Assembly: GCA_007751255.1 (NCBI GenBank)
Contig: CP036296.1
Coordinates: forward strand, 6,838,110-6,902,109
Length of the DNA: 64,000 nucleotides
From: Engelhardtia mirabilis
GTDB lineage: Bacteria; Planctomycetota; UBA1135; GCA-002686595
Direction of reading: 5' to 3'
A program made the position numbers and the translations under genes. The notes beneath the pieces were generated by a model, which worked only from the letters and a program-made list of their open reading frames with translations, searched no databases and was not told where the DNA came from. This document shows, in pieces, positions 42,504-51,851 of the stretch. Each line of letters opens with the position of its first letter. Positions within the stretch are counted from its first letter, which is position 1.

Positions 42504-43826
42504 CTAGGCCGGCGATCGAAGGTACGCGAGGCCCTCCGGCAACTCGCGCGCGCCTTCGCCCAAGCCAGCGCCGAACAGCAGGGCGATGTCTCGGAGGGGG
42601 CGCTCGTCACCACGGAAGATGAAGACGCCGACGTCGGGCGCGCTTCCAACCGCCATGAGCACCTCGAGAATCGACGACGCATTGCAGCGCCGCGGCCCGA
42701 CCTCCAGCTCCACCGGTGTTCCGTGGTGGTTGACGACGCTGACGATCAACGCAACGGGCCGCGCGTGCAGCTGCACGCCATCTGGCAGCTCCACTTCCAG
42801 TTCGCGGATGCGGGTGTAGTCAGAGAGCACGGCGATCGCGATGGGTCGACCGGCTTCGAGCACGTCCGCGGCCCCGACGAGCAGGTCGTTGAGGATCGTC
42901 GCCTGAACCTGAACAGGGTCGACAACTTGCGCGAGGAGCCGCCGGGTCGACTCACACCGCAAGTCGTTCTCATGGCGCTCGTGGAAGTGCGTCAGGTGAG
43001 TCACAGCCTCGAGCAGGTGGAGCGAGATCGAGGTGTAGCCGCGCAAGGCCACCAACCGACGATCGTTGGCCTCGAGGACGGTGTTCTTGACGTAGGTATC
43101 GTAAGTCGACTGTAAATTATGGACAGTCGCCTCATAGACCCGAGCCTGCGCCTCGGTGCAGTGGCGCGCTAGGAACTCCTGGCGTACTCGAGGCTCTGAG
43201 ATCGGCTGGATCCCCAACTCACCGAGCATTTGCGCCGCCTGACCGAACTTCGAAGCGACCTCAGCGATGCGCTGCTCCTCATCGCTGAGTTCGTCCTGCC
43301 CGACGTTGTGCGGCAGCCGAACTCGGGAGGTCGGATGACCAACGAAGTCTGCCGCAAGCGAACCCGTGCTCGGCTCAATCCCGGCCGTATGCCCCTCTGA
43401 CCTCACTGCTTCCACCAGCATCGCCAGCGCCTCACCGACGAACGTCGTCGCCCGACTCAGTCGACCAGCCAGGCGCTCATGCGTCGATTCCTCGATCCAG
43501 TCGCGAATTCCGTAGGAATCCAGGCGGCCCTGCAAATGCAACAACGAATGGCCGGTGAGCGAGAACCCACGTATGGCCGCCACCAACTCGGTCAGATCGG
43601 CGAAGCGTCGATTGGTTCGGGCGCCGTGATCGTCGAGAAAAGACTCGAGCACCTGCGCTTCGTGTAGCAGCTGGAAGGCCCGGGCCTTCGTCCAACCGCT
43701 CGCACCTGCGCCTTCGACGGTGTTCAGAAGCCTGAAGAACGGCTCCGACTGCACCTGAAGCAGCTCGGCGAATCGAGCCTCCTCGATGACCTGCTCGATC
43801 GGGGCTTCCGGGGCGGGGCTATTCAC
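42504..43826 (-). CDS. Protein with a C-terminal HPr-like phosphocarrier domain
   Basis: A 440-residue protein. The first 330 residues are helical, rich in Glu, Leu, Ala and Arg, and unrecognised. The last 90 look like the PTS phosphocarrier HPr: VELPDGVQLHARPVALIVS, with the active-site-type histidine in LHARP at 354, then NASSILEVLMAVG with serine 385. The 31-residue spacing equals that of HPr His15 and Ser46, which is strong support. A free HPr is about 88 residues, so this would be a fusion, likely regulatory rather than a general sugar phosphocarrier. The gene starts with GTG at 43826, 41 bp inside the divergent sigma-factor frame. Confidence 0.75.
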   Translation of the reverse strand: MNSPAPEAPIEQVIEEARFAELLQVQSEPFFRLLNTVEGAGASGWTKARAFQLLHEAQVLESFLDDHGARTNRRFADLTELVAAIRGFSLTGHSLLHLQGRLDSYGIRDWIEESTHERLAGRLSRATTFVGEALAMLVEAVRSEGHTAGIEPSTGSLAADFVGHPTSRVRLPHNVGQDELSDEEQRIAEVASKFGQAAQMLGELGIQPISEPRVRQEFLARHCTEAQARVYEATVHNLQSTYDTYVKNTVLEANDRRLVALRGYTSISLHLLEAVTHLTHFHERHENDLRCESTRRLLAQVVDPVQVQATILNDLLVGAADVLEAGRPIAIAVLSDYTRIRELEVELPDGVQLHARPVALIVSVVNHHGTPVELEVGPRRCNASSILEVLMAVGSAPDVGVFIFRGDERPLRDIALLFGAGLGEGARELPEGLAYLRSPA

Positions 43827-44823
43827 TCCGTCAACCCTACCAGACCCCCGATCGACAGGTCGGCCGACCGTCGCGCCCGAAACCCCCAGGCGACCTCAAG
43901 AGGGCAGCCCCACCCCGTCGATCGATCGGGCCTGGGGCATCCCGCAGGCAGCCGCCGCTGCCAACCCCAGGATCCGAGATCCTCTCTCCCCGGCCCAGGG
44001 CCAGGAGGCCGCCATTTCCGCCGAGCGCTGTCTGGAGACCTACCTCCAGGAGATCAACGAGGTGCCCCTTCTCACCGCAGAAGAGGAGCGCGAGCTCGGG
44101 ACCCGGATCCAATCCGGCGACCTCGAGGCGCGCGAGCACATGATTCGGGCGAACCTCCGCCTGGTCGTGTCCATCGCCAAGATGTACTCCGACCGCGGCC
44201 TTTCCCTGCAGGACCTCATCGCCGAGGGCAACATCGGCCTGATGAAGGCCGCGGAGAAGTTCGACCCCAAGGCCGGCTGCCGCTTCTCCACCTACGGCTC
44301 CTGGTGGATCAAGCAGTCGATCCGCCGCGCCCTCTCGAGCACGGTCCAATCCGTCCGAGTGCCGGGCTACATGAACGAGATGATCTCCAAGTGGCGCAAC
44401 GTCAGCGCGGAGCTCTCCTACCGTCTCGGCCGCACCCCGAACATCTCCGAGGTCGCCAACGAACTCGGCATCCCCGAGGAGAGTTGGGGCGTCCTCCGCA
44501 ACACCATCCACACCTCGGCCCTAGGACCCCAGGTCTCCCTCGACGCCCTCAGCATCCACCAAGAGGTGGTCGAGGATGAGAAGACCGCGGCCCCCGAGGA
44601 CCTGATCGCCCACGCCGACCTGCTCGGCCGCCTGGCCGACCTGCTCGAGTTCCTCGACGAACGCGAATCGACCATCCTGCGCCTGCGCTACGGCCTTCAA
44701 GACGGCGCCGAGCCGATGACCCTGAAGGAGATCGGCAAGGTCGTCGGCCTCACCCGCGAGCGCGTCCGCCAGATCGAGCGCGATGTGCTCGGCCGCCTGC
44801 AGCGGGTGATCGAGGGAGACTGA
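43786..44823 (+). CDS. Sigma-70 family RNA polymerase sigma factor (RpoD-like)
   Basis: A 345-residue sigma factor with regions 1.2 to 4. Region 1.2 is CLETYLQEINEVPLLTAEEE; region 2 has ANLRLVVSIAKMYSDRGLSL, then AEGNIGLMKAAEKFDPKAG and FSTYGSWWIKQSIRRAL. Region 3 includes SYRLGRTPNISEVANELGI, and region 4 ends EIGKVVGLTRERVRQIERDV. It is either the housekeeping factor without a long 1.1 domain or a group 2 paralogue. The first 80 residues are low-complexity. The only ordinary start, ATG 43786, overlaps the divergent HPr-domain gene by 41 bp, so the start is uncertain. A hairpin follows the stop. Confidence 0.9.
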   Translation: MTCSIGASGAGLFTPSTLPDPRSTGRPTVAPETPRRPQEGSPTPSIDRAWGIPQAAAAANPRIRDPLSPAQGQEAAISAERCLETYLQEINEVPLLTAEEERELGTRIQSGDLEAREHMIRANLRLVVSIAKMYSDRGLSLQDLIAEGNIGLMKAAEKFDPKAGCRFSTYGSWWIKQSIRRALSSTVQSVRVPGYMNEMISKWRNVSAELSYRLGRTPNISEVANELGIPEESWGVLRNTIHTSALGPQVSLDALSIHQEVVEDEKTAAPEDLIAHADLLGRLADLLEFLDERESTILRLRYGLQDGAEPMTLKEIGKVVGLTRERVRQIERDVLGRLQRVIEGD

Positions 44824-44848
44824 GCCGACCCGAGACGTCGTCACCATC

Positions 44849-44883
44849 CGGGGGCGCCTGGCGACAGCAGCCGGGTGCCCCCG
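44849..44883 (+). terminator. Hairpin downstream of the sigma factor gene
   Basis: CGGGGGCGCCTGG pairs with CCGGGTGCCCCCG (two G-U pairs) around a 9-nt loop, 25 nt after the stop. It is followed by CTTCCGTTCGG, only mildly U-rich. Confidence 0.6.
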
Positions 44884-45050
44884 CTTCCGTTCGGCCCAAG
44901 CCACAGACCCTCCTGGAAGTCCCACCGGCACCGGTCTACGAGGTCACCGCAACGGGCCCAAGGACGCAGAGTCTTCGCCGCTAGACGAGCAGCTAGGCTG
45001 CCGCCCGCCCATCGATCCCCTGACCCCGCCACCACGGCCAGAGACCCACC

Positions 45051-45278
45051 ATGAACATCCGCATCGAGTACTGCGTCCGCTGAAACTACCTCCCCCAGGC
45101 GACCGGTCTGGTCGCCGAACTCCAAGCAGCATTCGGAGCTGCCGAGATCGACGCTGAACTCGTGAAGGGTGACCGCGGAGCTTTTGAAGTCAGCGTCGGT
45201 GATCGCTTGATCTTCTCGAAGCTTCGCGAGGGGCGGTTTCCAACCTATCAGGAGATCCCCAACCTCTTGGCGGGATAG
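45051..45278 (+). CDS. SelW/Rdx-family selenoprotein (CxxU), UGA read as selenocysteine
   Basis: A 75-residue thioredoxin-fold redox protein of the Rdx (SelW/SelT/SelH) family. The frame is ATG, MNIRIEYCVR, UGA (45081-45083), NYLPQATGLVAELQAAF, ending EGRFPTYQEIPNLLAG and TAG. Cys8 and UGA-encoded residue 11 form CxxU at the exact site of the CxxC/CxxU motif in this family, after the first beta strand. Family features after it are also present (YLPQA helix, FEVSVGDRLIFSKLREG, the FP..EI helix). Without readthrough only 10 residues would be made. A hairpin with a GGUCU loop, 21 nt past the UGA, matches the bacterial SECIS pattern. The gene stands alone between the sigma factor terminator and a hairpin at 45286-45303. 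The start has no strong Shine-Dalgarno. Confidence 0.85.
45098..45116 (+). promoter_or_regulatory. SECIS element of the SelW-like gene
   Basis: GGCGACC (45098-45104) pairs perfectly with GGUCGCC (45110-45116), leaving a 5-nt loop GGUCU. The loop is the sequence known from the E. coli fdhF SECIS and starts with G. The distance from UGA to loop, 21 nt, is inside the usual 16-37 nt window. SelB would bind this loop. Confidence 0.85.
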
Positions 45279-46362
45279 GGTCCTCGTTGCCCGCGGGGGC
45301 AACCCGCTCCCGCGGAAGCGACAGCCGGCATCAGACACCAGACCACTTGCGGTACGCGAGTCGCTCCGCAAGTTGGATCGAGCACACCGCGATTGGCCGC
45401 GGACCACTCGCTCGATCTGCAGCTGAGGGCCCCGCCGTCCACCCTAGAACGCGGACGGCTCGAGGGTCAGGGCCGGTCACTCGCGACCGGAAAAATCGGC
45501 GAGCTTCGAGGGCGACTTCTGACCCTCGCGACCGCCGATCGATGCCGGCGAGCCTTGCGCGCCGCCGAGACACCTTGCGATCGGACGAGCTCAGCCCCGC
45601 CCGCCAAGGAGCCGCCCGTCGGCCCGGGGCCGATAGCCCACCGACCGAGCCTTCGCTCGGGTGTCAGCCCCGCGCCGGCCGTTGTCCCCCAGAGACCCAC
45701 GGCTGGTCTCGGCGCCCCGGCCCCGGTTGAGGCTGCAGGGCCCTCGCACCGGACTCAGTCGACGACTCCCGGGTCGCCATGGACGGCCGCAAGGACCCTT
45801 CACTCCGCCGCAACGGTGCAATCTCGGCGATGCGAGGGTCCGGTTCGAGCCGCTCGATGCAAGGTCCAAGCATGGTGCGCGGGAGCCGTCGGGGCCCCGT
45901 CGACAGGCACCAAGTTGATCCTTCCCAGCCAGCCGCGGTCACCGTCGACCCGCCCGGGCTGAACTCGCGGGGGGGATTCCCAGCCACCGTCCAGGAACCT
46001 CGGACCCGTAATCGCCGCGCCACCACCCCCGAGGATTCTCGGCGATCCCGCCTTCGCGCACGCTCGCCGATCAGGTTCGGCGAGTTCCGACGGTCGACCG
46101 CCAGCGCCCGGGAGCTCGACCTGGCATCTGGCCTGATTCGGCGAACGCCACCTGTCCGCGCTCCATCCATTCCGATCCGCCAAGTTCTCGGCCTCAGTCG
46201 AAGCCAACTCCATCCCTTCCGCCCGATCCCCTGATCCCGCGCGCGAGGGGGCCCGCGCCCGTGGGAACGATCGCCCCCGTCTACCCCCGGGAGTTCACCG
46301 GATCACCAGCCACGACGATCCGGCCATCCCATAGAACGGCAGACCCGCGAACTCCGCCGACT
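45279..46362. other. 1.08-kb region without a recognisable gene
   Basis: The region starts with a hairpin, GTTGCCC and GGGCAAC around GCGG (45286-45303), probably the end of the SelW transcript. A second short inverted repeat, ACTTGCGG with CCGCAAGT, lies at about 45348-45372. All open frames here are Arg/Ser/Pro-rich and look like chance frames in GC-rich DNA. I looked for tRNA, tmRNA and RNase P motifs and found none. It may hold decayed sequence or an RNA I cannot recognise. Confidence 0.5.
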
Positions 46363-47585
46363 GTGAATCCCAACGACCATTCCATCCCCGCTGCGATCCA
46401 GTGCTCACTCGACGCGAGCGTGGGGGCCGAGGATCCTCGTCATGGTCTCGAGCTGGCCTACGCTGCCTGGGAAGCCTCTATCCGGCTGGCCGTCCTCGCC
46501 GCGCCGCCGGAGGACCTCACGATCTTGGCCGACACAGGCTTCTCGACCTGGGTCGCGTGTTTCGAGGCGCCCGAGGTCGACGTCGACCTGACGGGCCTAC
46601 CGCCACTGCTCGGCTTGCCCCGGGACCAGCGTGTCTGCGCCTTCGACCTCGTCGACCGGGTCGTCGCCGGACGGTTGCGAAGGCTCGACCATGGCGACGA
46701 GGAGTCCGTTTCGGCCGCGCTGCGCGAAGCCTTGCAACGCACCTGGGACGCCGGTGTCTTCGACGGGGCTGCCGCCGCACTGGCCCGGGTTCCGTCTGCG
46801 CTCGAACCCTGGCTGATCCAGATATCCTCGACAACGTCCGCTCCCTCCGCGGGCTCAACCCTGCTGTTCTCCGGCTGGGCGACCACCGGGGCTCAGTTCC
46901 TCGATCTCGCCAGCGGCGTGATCTTGACCGGCAGTCGCCTCGAGCGACGCGTTCCCGGCCTCTCGGCGCGTGTCGGAGCGCTGTTGGGAGTCGCGTCGAC
47001 CTGGGCTCCGGTGGACGACGACGTGCCGTATGACATCGACGGGTACGACATCCTCGGCCTGCTCGAAGAAGGAGGGATGGGCCGAGTCCTCCTGGCACAG
47101 CAGCGGCGAACCAGCCGTCGCTTCGCCCTCAAGGTCGCTCGCGTCATGGTGGGCAAGACCCGCGCGGAACTCATCGTGCGCTTCGAGCAGGAGATCGAGG
47201 TCCTCGCCCGCTGCGAGCACCCTGGGGTGGCGCGCGTGGTCGACTCGGGTCTGACCGCCGACGAACCCTGGTATGCGATGGAGTTCATCGACGGCCCTAC
47301 CCTCGCTGACCTCGCGCGGACATTGACACCGACGGAGGGGCTCTCCACCGCGCTCGAGCGAGCGCGCGAGCGGCACCTCCGTCGCGCCCCGGCGCTGCGG
47401 CGACTGCATCGAAGCGGTCGGATGGCCCCACGTATCACCGCCCCGCCCCCTTGGCGGGATCTGGCGAGCCTCCTCGCCCGGGTGGCCGATGCGCTCCACC
47501 ACCTCCACACGAGTGGCATCGTCCACCGCGACGTCAGCCCCGCCAACGTCTTGGTCGAGTGGTCCACGATGCGGCCGGTACTCAC
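46363..47585 (+). pseudogene. Ser/Thr protein kinase, 5' part, disrupted by an IS21-family element
   Basis: The N-terminal half of a eukaryotic-like kinase. About 220 unrecognised residues come first. The kinase domain then begins DGYDILGLLEEGGMGRVLLA, with the ATP lysine in FALKVAR and the catalytic loop HRDVSPANVLV. The frame enters the insertion element after CTCAC and stops 26 codons later at 47664. Deleting the element and one CTCAC copy joins VEWSTMRPVL directly to TDFGLASLDPGG in frame, rebuilding the DFG loop of an intact protein of about 914 residues. So the gene is a recent insertion mutant, not a decayed relic. The start is uncertain (GTG 46363, or GTG 46261). Confidence 0.88.
47581..47585. 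repeat. Left target-site duplication CTCAC
   Basis: CTCAC directly precedes the left element end (TGTTGCAG) and is repeated at 50325-50329 after the right end. A 5-bp duplication is within the range reported for IS21-family insertions. Confidence 0.88.
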
Positions 47586-47620
47586 TGTTGCAGCTCGGGG
47601 TATCAAGTCCACCTGTAGCC

Positions 47621-47733
47621 CGGCCAAGCTGGTCCACCCCGGCGGCGGGGTGATGGGCGGGTGAGATCGGCCAGGCTGGTCCACCCTGGTTCGGCCAAGC
47701 TGGTCCACCTCAGCTCGGCCAAGCTGGTCCACC
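47621..47733. repeat. Four repeated transposase-binding-type sites at the IS left end
   Basis: CGGCCAAGCTGGTCCACC occurs at 47621, 47692 and 47716, with a one-base variant (CGGCCAGGCTGGTCCACC) at 47668. Inverted copies lie at the right end, 50154-50171 and 50272-50289 (one mismatch). IS21 elements typically carry such multiple IstA-binding repeats at their ends. Confidence 0.85.
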
Positions 47734-47812
47734 GCCGCCAGTCCCGAAGGTCCTCCCGCCGGTCTACTGACCGCCCTCATCCTCTTCGGCTCCCACGAGC
47801 CAAGGAGGATGG

Positions 47813-49408
47813 ATGGGCGCCAGGAGGACCGACATGCACAGACTTCAGGAGATGCTCCGCCTGCACAGGCTGGGGCAGGGATCGCGAGGGATCGCGCGAC
47901 AGCTGCACATTGGGCGGGACACGATCCGTGCCTACATGCGCGCGCTCGCTACGGCGGGGCTGCTCGAGGGCGCGCCTAACGAGCTGCCCGACCTCGATCA
48001 GCTGCGAGCGGCAGTCGAGGAGCACGTCCAGTCGAGGCAGGCGCCGCAGCAGCGCTCCTCGGTCGAGCGGTGGGTCGCGACGATCGAGCGGCTGCGGAAG
48101 AAGGGGGCCGGGCCGAGTGCGATCCACGACTGGCTACGCCTGAACGAGCCGGACTTCGACGGCAGCCTCTCGGCCATCAAGCGTCTGGTGCTGCGACTCG
48201 CCGACGCGGAGGGTCCCAAGCCGACGGACGTAGCCATCTCCGTCGAGACGACCGCGGGCGAGGTGGCCCAGGTCGACTTCGGCTACGTCGGGAAGCGCTA
48301 CGACCCCGAGCGCGGCGTCTTGCGCAAGAGCTGGCTCTTCGTGATGACGCTCGGCTGCAGCCGCCACATGCACACCCAGATCGTCTTCGACCAGAAGATC
48401 GAGACCTGGGTGAGGCTGCATGTCGAGGCGTTCGAGTACTTCGGCGGCGTGCCGCGCGTCATCGTGCCCGACAACTTGAAGGCGGCAGTGATTCGGGCCT
48501 CGTTCGGCGTGGACGGCGAACCCGTCTTGAACCGCACGTACGTCGAACTCGCACGCTATTACGGATTCCAGATCGACCCGACGCCGCCACGCGCGCCGGA
48601 GAAGAAGGGCAAGGTCGAGCGCGGAGTGCGCTACACGAAGGGAAACTTCTTCGCTACGCACGAGTCCGTCGACATCCACGAGGACCGGCGGGCGCTGCGG
48701 CGCTGGACGCTGGAGATCGCAGGGCGGCGCCGGCACGGGACGACTGGCCGCGCACCGCTCGAGTACTTCGAGGAGGAAGAGCGCGCTGCCCTGCTGAGCT
48801 TGCCGCAGTCGCGGTGGGAGCTCGTGATCTGGAAGAAGGCACGCCTGCATCGTGACAGCCACGTCCAGGTCGACGGCGCCTTCTACTCCGCGCCGTGGAC
48901 CTTGCTGGGCCAAGACCTCTGGCTGCGCTGCACGACGCACTCGATTGTGATCTACGCCGAGGACTGCCGTCTTCACGCTCATTCGCGTGTGCCGCGCGGC
49001 AAGCGCAGCACGATCGAGTCGCATCTCCCCGAGCACCGCCGTGACCTCCGGCACCGCAGCCGCGAGCACTGGATCGTGCGTGCTCGGGTGATCGGTGAGG
49101 AGGTCGAAGTGCTCGCTGCCGCGATCTTCGACTCCGACGATGTGCTCTACCAGCTGCGCAAGGTGCAGGCGGTCGTCACGCATCTCGAGGGCTTTCCGCG
49201 CGAGCGCGCACGCGCGACGGCCAGACGCGCGCTGCACTTCGGCTGCCTCGAGTACCGCAGCATCAAGAGCATCCTCAAGCAGGGGCTCGACCTCGAGCCC
49301 CTGCCGGAGGAGTCCGGGCGAGCGTGGTCTCAGGGATCGATGTTCGCCCGCAACCCGAGCGAAACGCTCACAGCAATCCAGGAGAAGACCCATGGCGATC
49401 GCCGATGA
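47813..49408 (+). CDS. istA: IstA, IS21-family transposase
   Basis: A 531-residue DDE transposase that carries out strand cleavage and joining. The N-terminal helix-turn-helix is LQEMLRLHRLGQGSRGIARQ, then LHIGRDTIRAYMRA. The rve catalytic core has VAQVDFGYVGKR (first Asp), VPRVIVPDNLKAAV (second Asp) and APEKKGKVERGVRYTKGNFF (catalytic Glu in the KVE context). AAGGAGG lies 4 nt upstream of the ATG at 47813. Its stop overlaps the istB start by 17 nt, the usual coupling in IS21. Confidence 0.95.
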   Translation: MGARRTDMHRLQEMLRLHRLGQGSRGIARQLHIGRDTIRAYMRALATAGLLEGAPNELPDLDQLRAAVEEHVQSRQAPQQRSSVERWVATIERLRKKGAGPSAIHDWLRLNEPDFDGSLSAIKRLVLRLADAEGPKPTDVAISVETTAGEVAQVDFGYVGKRYDPERGVLRKSWLFVMTLGCSRHMHTQIVFDQKIETWVRLHVEAFEYFGGVPRVIVPDNLKAAVIRASFGVDGEPVLNRTYVELARYYGFQIDPTPPRAPEKKGKVERGVRYTKGNFFATHESVDIHEDRRALRRWTLEIAGRRRHGTTGRAPLEYFEEEERAALLSLPQSRWELVIWKKARLHRDSHVQVDGAFYSAPWTLLGQDLWLRCTTHSIVIYAEDCRLHAHSRVPRGKRSTIESHLPEHRRDLRHRSREHWIVRARVIGEEVEVLAAAIFDSDDVLYQLRKVQAVVTHLEGFPRERARATARRALHFGCLEYRSIKSILKQGLDLEPLPEESGRAWSQGSMFARNPSETLTAIQEKTHGDRR

Positions 49409-50141
49409 CCTCGTCCCCGTACTCAAGAAGCTCCGGCTCTCGGGCGTGCTTCAGACGCTCGACCTGCGCACGAAGGAAGCCGTCGATGCGGATCTCAGCC
49501 ACTCCGAATTCCTCTTCCGCCTCTGCAGCGACGAGGTCGAGCGGCGCGACTCGAAGCAGCTCGAGATGCGCTTGCGACGCGCGACCTTCGAAACCACCAA
49601 GCGGCTCGACGACTTCGAGTGGTCCTTCAACCCGCAGATCCCCAAGACCAAGATCATCGACCTCGCGACCTGTGGCTTCGTCGCGAAGCAGGAGAACGTG
49701 CTGCTGATCGGGCCTGCCGGCGTCGGCAAGAGCCACATCGCCCAGGCGCTGGGAGAACGCGCTTGCCGCGCTGGCCACTCAGCGCTGTACACGACCGCCC
49801 ACCGGATGCTCACCCAGCTGCGGTCGTCACGGGCCGACCAAGGCTGGGACAAGCGGCTCCTGCGTTACACAACGCCGGACGTGCTGATCCTCGATGACCT
49901 CGGCCTGCGGCCGCTCGAAGGTGACGAGCCGATCGACCTGTACGAGGTGATCCGAGCTCGCTACGAGCGGGGCTCGATCGTGGTCACGTCGAACCGCGCC
50001 ATCGAGGAGTGGTACCCGCTCTTCCGCGACGACCTGATGGCCTCCGCCGCGATGGACCGCTTGCTCCACCACTCGCACGTCCTGGTGATGGAAGGGAGCT
50101 CCTACCGCAACCCGCCGACCAAAGGGCGCGAGGCTGTCTGA
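49392..50141 (+). CDS. istB: IstB, IS21-family helper ATPase
   Basis: A 249-residue AAA+ ATPase of the DnaC-like family that selects targets and recruits IstA. Walker A is GPAGVGKSH, Walker B is VLILDDLGLRPL, and sensor text SIVVTSNRAIEEWYPLF and the conserved C-terminus MDRLLHHSHVLVMEGSSYR are present. ATG 49392 has AGGAG about 9 nt upstream and overlaps the end of istA. Confidence 0.95.
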   Translation: MAIADDLVPVLKKLRLSGVLQTLDLRTKEAVDADLSHSEFLFRLCSDEVERRDSKQLEMRLRRATFETTKRLDDFEWSFNPQIPKTKIIDLATCGFVAKQENVLLIGPAGVGKSHIAQALGERACRAGHSALYTTAHRMLTQLRSSRADQGWDKRLLRYTTPDVLILDDLGLRPLEGDEPIDLYEVIRARYERGSIVVTSNRAIEEWYPLFRDDLMASAAMDRLLHHSHVLVMEGSSYRNPPTKGREAV

Positions 50142-50324
50142 TGCCCCGATCGAGGTGGACCAGCTTGGCCGAACTGGAGGATCTGTTTTTCCAGCCCCTC
50201 CTGGGCGCCCCTTTCTGGCGCTCCGAACCTCCCTTGCCGAGCACTCAATGACTGATTTCCGAGGGCACTGAGCTGGACCAGCTTGGCCGAACTGAGGGTG
50301 GACCTGACCAGCCGAACCTTGACA

Positions 50325-50329
50325 CTCAC
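50325..50329. repeat. Right target-site duplication CTCAC
   Basis: The second copy of the 5-bp duplication, immediately after the right end ACA of the IS21 element. It is followed by AGACTTCGG, which continues the kinase DFG codons. Confidence 0.88.
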
Positions 50330-51851
50330 AGACTTCGGCCTGGCGTCCCTCGACCCGGGTGGCTGGCGTCCGGATCGGCCTCGCCCCCAGCGCGAGGGCA
50401 CCATGGCCTACTGTGCTCCCGAACGCCTCGATCCGAGACATGGCGATGACGATCCGCGGTCGGACGTCTATTCCCTCGCGGCCGTCGGCTTCGAGCTCGT
50501 AACAGGCCAGCCGGTCCGCAGCGGCGGGCAGGCGTCCCTCGACGAGGCCACCCAATCGACGTCACGGTGGCCGCACCACCTTTGCAGCGAGGTCCCGCTC
50601 GAGCTGTCGGCGGTGCTACGCCACGCCCTCGCGCCTGACCCGGACCGACGCTATCCGTCAGCGGCAGACTTCGCCGCCGATCTGCGCCGCTTCGCCGAGG
50701 ACCGCCCGGTGGCGGTGCCGCTGGAGAAGCCGAGTCAAACCCTGCGCGCCACGGCACGGCGCCAACGAGGTTTCATTGCCGTCGCGTGTCTGACTTTGGC
50801 GTCGATCTTCGGCTCCCTCGCCGTCGGGCATTGGCGCGGGAGCATCGGGGCGGCCGACCGCTTCCACATGCAGCTCGAACGGATCGTCCACGAGTCCAGG
50901 GAGGTGCCGGGTGGACTGTCACCGGAGCTCGAGGGGGAGTTCCGGGCGTTGCTGGTCGAAATCACGCCCGCGACGGCCGGGCGCCCCCTGCCCTCTTCGG
51001 ACCGCGCACACGACGATGATCCCGGGGCCACATCGAACTCCAATCCGAGCGCCGTCCTGCTCTCCCTCGCCTTGGCCGCCACGCGCCTGGATGAGCTCGG
51101 TCCCGTCGAGATCCTCGACTGGCTCACGCGGGCGAGGGACTGGCCGACCGAGGACCTGGCCGCCGGCGCGGCGGACCTGGACCGCCTCGCCGGCGAGTTC
51201 GTGGCCCTCTCGGGCCCCGGTCGCGACCGACGTCTGGCATCGGCCGAGGCCACCTGGCGCGCCGCGGCGAGAGCGACCCAACGGACCTGGGTTCGCGCGC
51301 AGTTCCTCGAGCGCAGCGCCTGGGCCGCAGAGGCGCGCGGCGAGGTGGAAGCCGCCCGCATGGACCTTGAAGCGGCGTGGGGCGTGCTCGCGGGAACGTC
51401 GGCGGCGGTGGTCGAGTCCCGGCGTCCCGTTCTCGAGCTGGCGCGACTCGCCCGCCTGCAGGGCGACCAGGGCGCTCTCGAAGTCGCCCGCGAGCGACTC
51501 GATTTGATCGTGACCACCTGGACCACCCAGCGAGGCGCCGACGACCCTCTCACTCTGAGCGCCTGCGCCGAGTTCGCACGGGTCGACCTGGCCCTGGACC
51601 GCGCCCATCCGCGGGAGGACGAGGTCGTTCGCGCCGACGAGGTCCTCGAGCGTGCGACTGCGCTGGAGACGGTCCAGGGCACTTGGCGCCTGGGCCTGGC
51701 GCTCGACCTCGCGGAAGCCCATTGGCGTCTCGGCGAGCTCGCGGCCGGCACCGAACTCCTGCGTCGCGGCGCCGCCCTCCCCGAGGCCCCAACGGCGCTC
51801 CCCGGCGACGCCCTCCAGACGTGGAGGGCGGCCGCCGCGCCAGTCCGCTGA
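50330..51851 (+). pseudogene. Ser/Thr protein kinase, 3' part, separated by the IS element
   Basis: The C-terminal half of the interrupted kinase. It starts inside the activation segment (TDFGLASLDPGG), with EGTMAYCAPERLD as the APE motif and SDVYSLAAVGFELVTGQPV after it. A single membrane helix (GFIAVACLTLASIFGSLAVG) follows, then about 330 residues of Ala/Arg/Leu-rich helical, TPR-like text. The open frame continues up to 50283 inside the element. Without the 5' part it lacks the ATP-binding lobe and HRD loop, so it is not a working kinase. It precedes the ECF sigma factor gene by about 65 nt, as in many planctomycete kinase/sigma pairs. Confidence 0.88.

Follow-up and report, generated by a model that had tools for sequence, protein, structure and literature searches.

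A predicted SelW-like (Rdx family) selenoprotein gene with a conserved, covarying hairpin after its UGA codon in Engelhardtia mirabilis

SelW-like proteins of the Rdx family, carrying a CxxU motif, have been reported among bacterial selenoproteins from the Sargasso Sea, from GOS and from sequenced genomes (PMC1088965, PMC2398784, PMC1794560, PMC9312934). In the available text of these reports they are the most abundant selenoprotein family of the Sargasso Sea, with 48 genes (PMC1088965), head the GOS table at 427 (PMC2398784), and have few or no Cys homologues among Sec-using organisms (PMC1794560). The accessible part of a 2016 survey of >5200 genomes has the entry 'Selenoprotein W like 35 35' (PMC5029168), the meanings of the columns not being given there. 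SelW genes of epsilonproteobacteria, with covarying SECIS elements, were described as wholly missed by annotation (PMC4607533, in excerpt), and Sec use in Planctomycetes has been reported (PMC4807772, in excerpt). Since SelW-like proteins are an established bacterial family in which unannotated cases are on record, the gene described here adds a member to a known family.

The gene lies in a 64,000-nucleotide stretch of Engelhardtia mirabilis DNA, here called the window. With the bacterial SelW-like proteins, as the excerpted metagenome and genome reports describe them, it shares the family, the CxxU motif, a SECIS right after the UGA and a G in the small loop. Its clade differs in a CxxU-NY...QATGLVAEL signature, a distinction drawn from the published descriptions, and its hairpin geometry is nearly fixed (14 nt from UGA to stem, a loop of 5 nt). 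The epsilonproteobacterial genes, in the same excerpt, are likewise of the annotation-missed type, with a covarying SECIS stem and an invariant loop G, but they belong to another phylum. Against the Campylobacter-type model NF041051 (SelTWH_Campy equivalog) the window protein scored 87.4 bits, 0.6 bit under the cut-off of 88, and so is not filed in that equivalog. The planctomycete isolates P1 and P2 likewise have the Sec gene set and selenoproteins, but SelW has no occurrence in the main text of that report (PMC4807772), unlike the present genome with its SelW-type gene. A literature search covering the main text of openly accessible journals returned no paper on SelW selenoproteins across Planctomycetota.

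We consider it very likely that the locus (Table 1) is a functional SelW-like selenoprotein gene whose UGA is read as Sec by means of SelB and the hairpin, giving a CxxU redox product; Sec insertion and activity are predicted. The earlier note had described an ATG, CVR, an in-frame TGA at the CxxU site and a frame open to TAG, all of which were correct to the base, and its perfect 7-bp stem with a GGUCU loop 21 nt after the UGA was confirmed in the sequence. The protein begins MNIRIEYCVRU and runs for 64 more residues to the TAG. C8 and position 11 were invariant in 46 aligned relatives, which had been chosen for having TGA. Downstream of the UGA, comparison of the window gene with eight relatives gave dN of 0.28-0.42, dS of 0.87-1.47 and dN/dS of 0.19-0.37; judged by these ratios, the coding region past the UGA has demonstrably been under purifying selection. 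Table-11 ORFs of at least 60 aa overlapping the gene numbered none on the plus strand and three on the minus strand (188, 62 and 64 aa), and it is plausible that ordinary gene calling leaves 45051-45278 as empty DNA. A scan around the gene for a sigma-70-like promoter or an intrinsic terminator found none.

Table 1. Features of the selenoprotein locus, its surroundings and the host genome (window positions, except those prefixed G000:C1, which are in the host genome)
Feature	Position	Strand	Remarks
SelW-like/Rdx selenoprotein gene (predicted)	45051..45278	+	ATG start; TAG stop 45276-45278; 75 residues including Sec; Sec is residue 11
CxxU redox motif codons (C8 V9 R10 U11)	45072..45083	+	read from the sequence
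In-frame UGA, predicted to be read as selenocysteine	45081..45083	+	lone TGA in 34/34 matches and in 115/123 phylum-sample matches
SECIS hairpin	45098..45116	+	stem 45098-45104/45110-45116, 7/7 Watson-Crick pairs; loop GGUCU 45105-45109
Antisense ORF, 188 aa, judged spurious	44841..45407	-	no Pfam match; a gene caller might pick it instead of the selenoprotein gene
Sigma-70 type sigma factor (regions 1.2, 2, 3, 4), upstream neighbour	43786..44823	+	domain matches; no match in the 91 loci compared
ORF before IS21-type element	46261-47664		matches Pkinase positions 5-132
istA-like, integrase core	47813-49408		part of IS21-type element
istB	49389-50141		PF01695, 231.6 bits
ORF after IS21-type element	50283-51851		matches Pkinase positions 134-252
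Second Rdx gene, selenoprotein candidate	G000:C1:5055411-5055644 (L116:2397-2648)	-	84 residues; UGA at residue 11
selA	G000:C1:2446683-2448059		profile match, 461 bits
selD	G000:C1:2448168-2449100 (L019)		318 bits; directly after selA; one in-frame TGA
selB	G000:C1:2799538 onward		313 bits; SelB-wing_3 (winged-helix) domain
tRNA-Sec	G000:C1:4599173-4599266		70 bits, gathering score 47; anticodon TCA (UCA in RNA)

With Cys replacing Sec, the window protein matched Pfam Rdx (PF10262) at 72.6 bits (cut-off 22.6, E 3.1e-20) and TIGR02174 at 66.9 bits, above the cut-off of 34.2. A sequence search of the PDB gave eight matches at E up to 1, including 3dex (E 1.4e-7) and 2fa8 (E 1.6e-7). An AlphaFold model built on an alignment of 46 sequences had a mean pLDDT of 97.6 and a pTM of 0.86, and its best PDB match was 2fa8 (TM 0.87, 1.3 A). 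All 22 structural matches at E <= 0.001 came from seven entries that the sequence search had found too; the top solved ones were bacterial SelW-related proteins, with mouse SelW (2npb) at rank 23. In the model a strand of residues 2-8 precedes C8..U11, which places the redox motif after the first strand. The SelW-related structures 2fa8, 3dex, 2obk and 2p0g have the fold of the model (TM-score 0.83-0.89), but 2fa8 and 3dex carry CxxC where the window protein has CxxU. A thioredoxin-like SelW-type redox domain is well supported as the predicted product, and its CxxU pair would have thiol/selenol redox activity.

The UGA of the window gene is separated from the stem by 14 nt and from the loop by 21 nt. 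We scanned the 1244 TGA triplets of both window strands (632 + 612) for a [AG]GU[CU]U loop 10-37 nt downstream closed by at least six pairs, and a single one, the UGA of this gene, had such a hairpin. Folding energy by itself is weak evidence for the hairpin: it is unremarkable (z = -1.5), with 11 of 200 shuffles folding equally well. An Rfam search of the window returned no family at gathering score, SECIS or other.

Stem pairing was then compared across relatives. Removing duplicates among 91 first-clade segments gave the 79 distinct ones used here. The counts exclude 13 segments belonging to the second clade and its neighbours, as well as three of the 34 named loci: L082, a Cys form, and L084 and L085, whose proteins share a short stretch but have no Rdx frame. 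Standard pairs filled 496 of 553 cells (89.7%, against 75.1% in shuffles) and changes on both sides were seen in 85 cells (against 32.6), values that none of 500 shuffles reached in either case. One of the five covariation measures was weak: five pairs had any double change, against 4.0 when shuffled, and 58 of 500 shuffles reached this. Sliding the stem partner lowered pairing to 55% or less. The strongest test of hairpin covariation is pair 21-33, which connects the third positions of codons 17 and 21 and is intact in 75 of 79 segments (G-C 39, C-G 26, U-A 4, A-U 2, G-U 4, unpaired 4). All 79 encode Ala at codon 17, so changes on that side of the pair are silent and protein constraint is not the explanation. 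Pairs 22-32 and 23-31 couple residues 18 and 21; 28 segments have Thr..Val there and eight have Val..Thr, with both pairs kept in all 36. The loop was GGUCU in 56 segments, AGUUU in 13, AGUCU in four, AGCCU in four and of other types in two, its second base being G throughout (79/79). At the level of these alignments, the hairpin is conserved and covaries, which shows selection on it.

A fixed 7-bp register is unsuited to some relatives: 24 of the 79 segments leave the bottom of the stem unpaired, and L090, L099 and L104 each have four of seven stem pairs broken. Among the eight homologues without UGA, seven break three to four of the seven pairs (the Cys-type relatives L082, L086, L087 and L125 break three or four), and the Gly-type L129 breaks one. 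Since L129 retains six of seven pairs and an AGCCU loop without a UGA, the hairpin alone is no proof of Sec coding; that of L129 may be a remnant of a former SECIS.

Matches to the window gene were found in 32 of 41 genomes searched, host included, and each of the 34 matches contained exactly one TGA. The homologue of Planctomycetes bacterium Pla163 is 70% identical to the window gene. Myxobacterial homologues (L053, L055, L058, L072-L074) reach 68% in Plesiocystis pacifica, 66 and 59% in Enhygromyxa salina and 54-59% in Nannocystis, as near as many from the same phylum, which suggests that gene transfer may have been involved. In a sample of 294 phylum genomes, Rdx was present in 109, with 123 matches, of which 115 had one TGA (part of them read as DNA) and eight had none. 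Seven of these eight were read and carry Cys (three), Gly (three) or Ala (one) at the Sec position; the eighth (G282:C134) begins past the redox motif, and a longer match at the same place has one TGA. The Sec form of Rdx, as predicted from the TGA, is the rule in the phylum sample.

selA matches over the cut-off were found in 96 of the 107 genomes with a TGA-containing Rdx gene against 95 of the 187 others (Fisher p 2e-12, uncorrected for kinship), the 23 selA matches under the cut-off (214 minus 191) having been assigned from E-values to fit the tally. Eleven of the 107 fell short, seven for lack of any match and four with one scoring below the cut-off. Completeness is rated <90% for seven of the eleven, the exceptions being G120 (92%), G292 (91%), G090 and G100 (90% each). 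The Cys-only Rdx genomes G044 and G319 had no selA match.

In the host genome (6.95 Mb, two contigs, completeness rated 90.5%) selA, selB, selD and tRNA-Sec are all present. selD contains an in-frame UGA of its own (CAGU), and a 5-bp GGUCU hairpin lies 32 nt further on. The earlier note had inferred a real selenoprotein gene and proposed looking for Rdx similarity, for the same gene and hairpin in related genomes and for the sel genes; each search was positive, the stems in relatives covarying, and the Rdx match, the Sec pathway genes and the recurring UGA with its hairpin bear the inference out. Neither of the two outcomes that the note named as refuting, a lack of Rdx similarity in a sensitive profile search or of a Sec pathway in the genome, was observed. 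Its 'textbook SECIS' was a fair description, the G in a small loop fitting the excerpted PMC1088965 and PMC4607533 and GGUCU also following the UGA of selD and of the second Rdx gene. A genome-wide scan with a covariance model built from 39 SECIS segments gave only the two Rdx genes under E 0.01, both training members; selD was not recovered, and nine other matches lay at E 0.13 to 9. In one of the nine, L142, an in-frame TGA lies 33 nt upstream of the AGUCU loop of a hairpin with six pairs. We rejected it as a selenoprotein: its sole Pfam domain, DUF4062, starts 107 residues past the TGA, which we therefore take to lie upstream of the true start.

By the mechanism we propose, a ribosome would arrive at the UGA at codon 11, where the C-terminal winged-helix part of SelB would bind the GGUCU hairpin, located 15-33 nt past that codon, and hairpin-bound SelB would deliver Sec-tRNA(UCA). 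Sec would be inserted and translation would proceed through the hairpin up to the TAG, yielding a small thioredoxin-like domain with the CxxU pair as its thiol/selenol redox site. SelB binding and Sec insertion in Engelhardtia mirabilis are what we infer from these parts.

The locus could be a Cys-type Rdx gene inactivated when its active-site codon mutated to a stop, as a bare UGA in a single genome would look alike and Cys, Gly or Ala does occupy this position in a few Rdx homologues (8 of 123 without TGA; L082, L086, L087, L125 and L128-L131 read). Against such a pseudogene, the same UGA stands in all 34 matches from relatives and in 115 of 123 from the phylum sample, dN/dS past it is low, the hairpin covaries and the genome has the Sec genes, which makes this reading very improbable. 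We give still less credence to decoding of the UGA as Trp or Cys through a changed code or a suppressor tRNA: an open frame across the UGA is compatible with it, but selA appears to use TGA as its own stop just before selD, the genome has a tRNA-Sec with anticodon TCA, and in the relatives read the UGA occupies the redox position, with a SECIS-like hairpin after it. It is just as hard to credit the antisense 188-aa ORF as the true gene, with the Rdx resemblance as a by-product. It is the longest table-11 ORF across the stretch, yet it had no Pfam match at E <= 0.01, changes in the plus frame (against L052) number 16, 15 and 28 by codon position, most of them at the third, and the Rdx similarity is far above chance.

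A dual use of the UGA, mainly as a stop in low selenium, would make the gene a selenium-dependent switch in which a 10-residue peptide is discarded. Competition between termination and Sec insertion has been described for bacteria (PMC4513850, in excerpt), but dual use would accompany the main reading and not replace it; we regard it as unlikely, though less so than the other three. Translation through the UGA with Sec is the reading we keep.

The second Rdx gene of the host scored 34.5 bits with Pfam Rdx, over the cut-off, and 20.1 with TIGR02174 and 31.7 with NF041051, both under their cut-offs; after its UGA comes a hairpin of 8 bp, again with the loop GGUCU. It belongs to a divergent second Rdx subfamily, for which eleven sequences were aligned. 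Ten of the 294 phylum genomes have a subfamily match of >100 bits, each with one TGA, a count that is not independent, as nine of the ten were in the query alignment. As a separate observation, L128, L129, L130 and L131 are Rdx paralogues with Gly or Ala for Cys or Sec (CVPG, CEVG, SEPA) in genomes that also have a TGA-containing Rdx gene; they are possibly redox-dead partners.

Gene neighbourhood was rejected as a clue to function, with no consistent neighbour in 91 loci. When eleven window neighbours were compared by tblastn with these loci (L023-L083, L086-L115), five scattered kinase matches appeared, in three loci only. The sigma factor neighbour had no match in the 91, most of which have ~1.5 kb per side; with only 30 of 91 loci >5 kb, the search covers close context only. 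Elsewhere in the window, an IS21-type element (46261-51851) is inserted within a protein-kinase domain, and a 27-nt repeat surrounds it in four direct copies on the left and two inverted copies on the right. The sole domain match in a 440-aa ORF at 42504-43826 (minus strand) is an HPr-like segment towards the C-terminus (PF00381, 25.4 bits).

On balance we think it probable, with some reserve, that Planctomycetota harbour a large set of SelW-type selenoproteins that has drawn little notice, with Sec as the default form, and that part of the phylum, the host included, has a second, divergent Sec-only Rdx subfamily under the NCBI subfamily cut-off. In the same proposal, the intracoding SECIS hairpin of the main clade would dictate the Thr18/Val21 to Val18/Thr21 swaps, the covarying residues being due to RNA pairing and not to protein function. 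The window gene is a clean example of how standard annotation can lose a gene whose active-site residue looks like a stop codon. Such loss could be widespread, a TGA-containing Rdx gene being found in 107 of 294 sampled phylum genomes, and covariation at silent sites provides a family-wide test for which UGAs are Sec codons.
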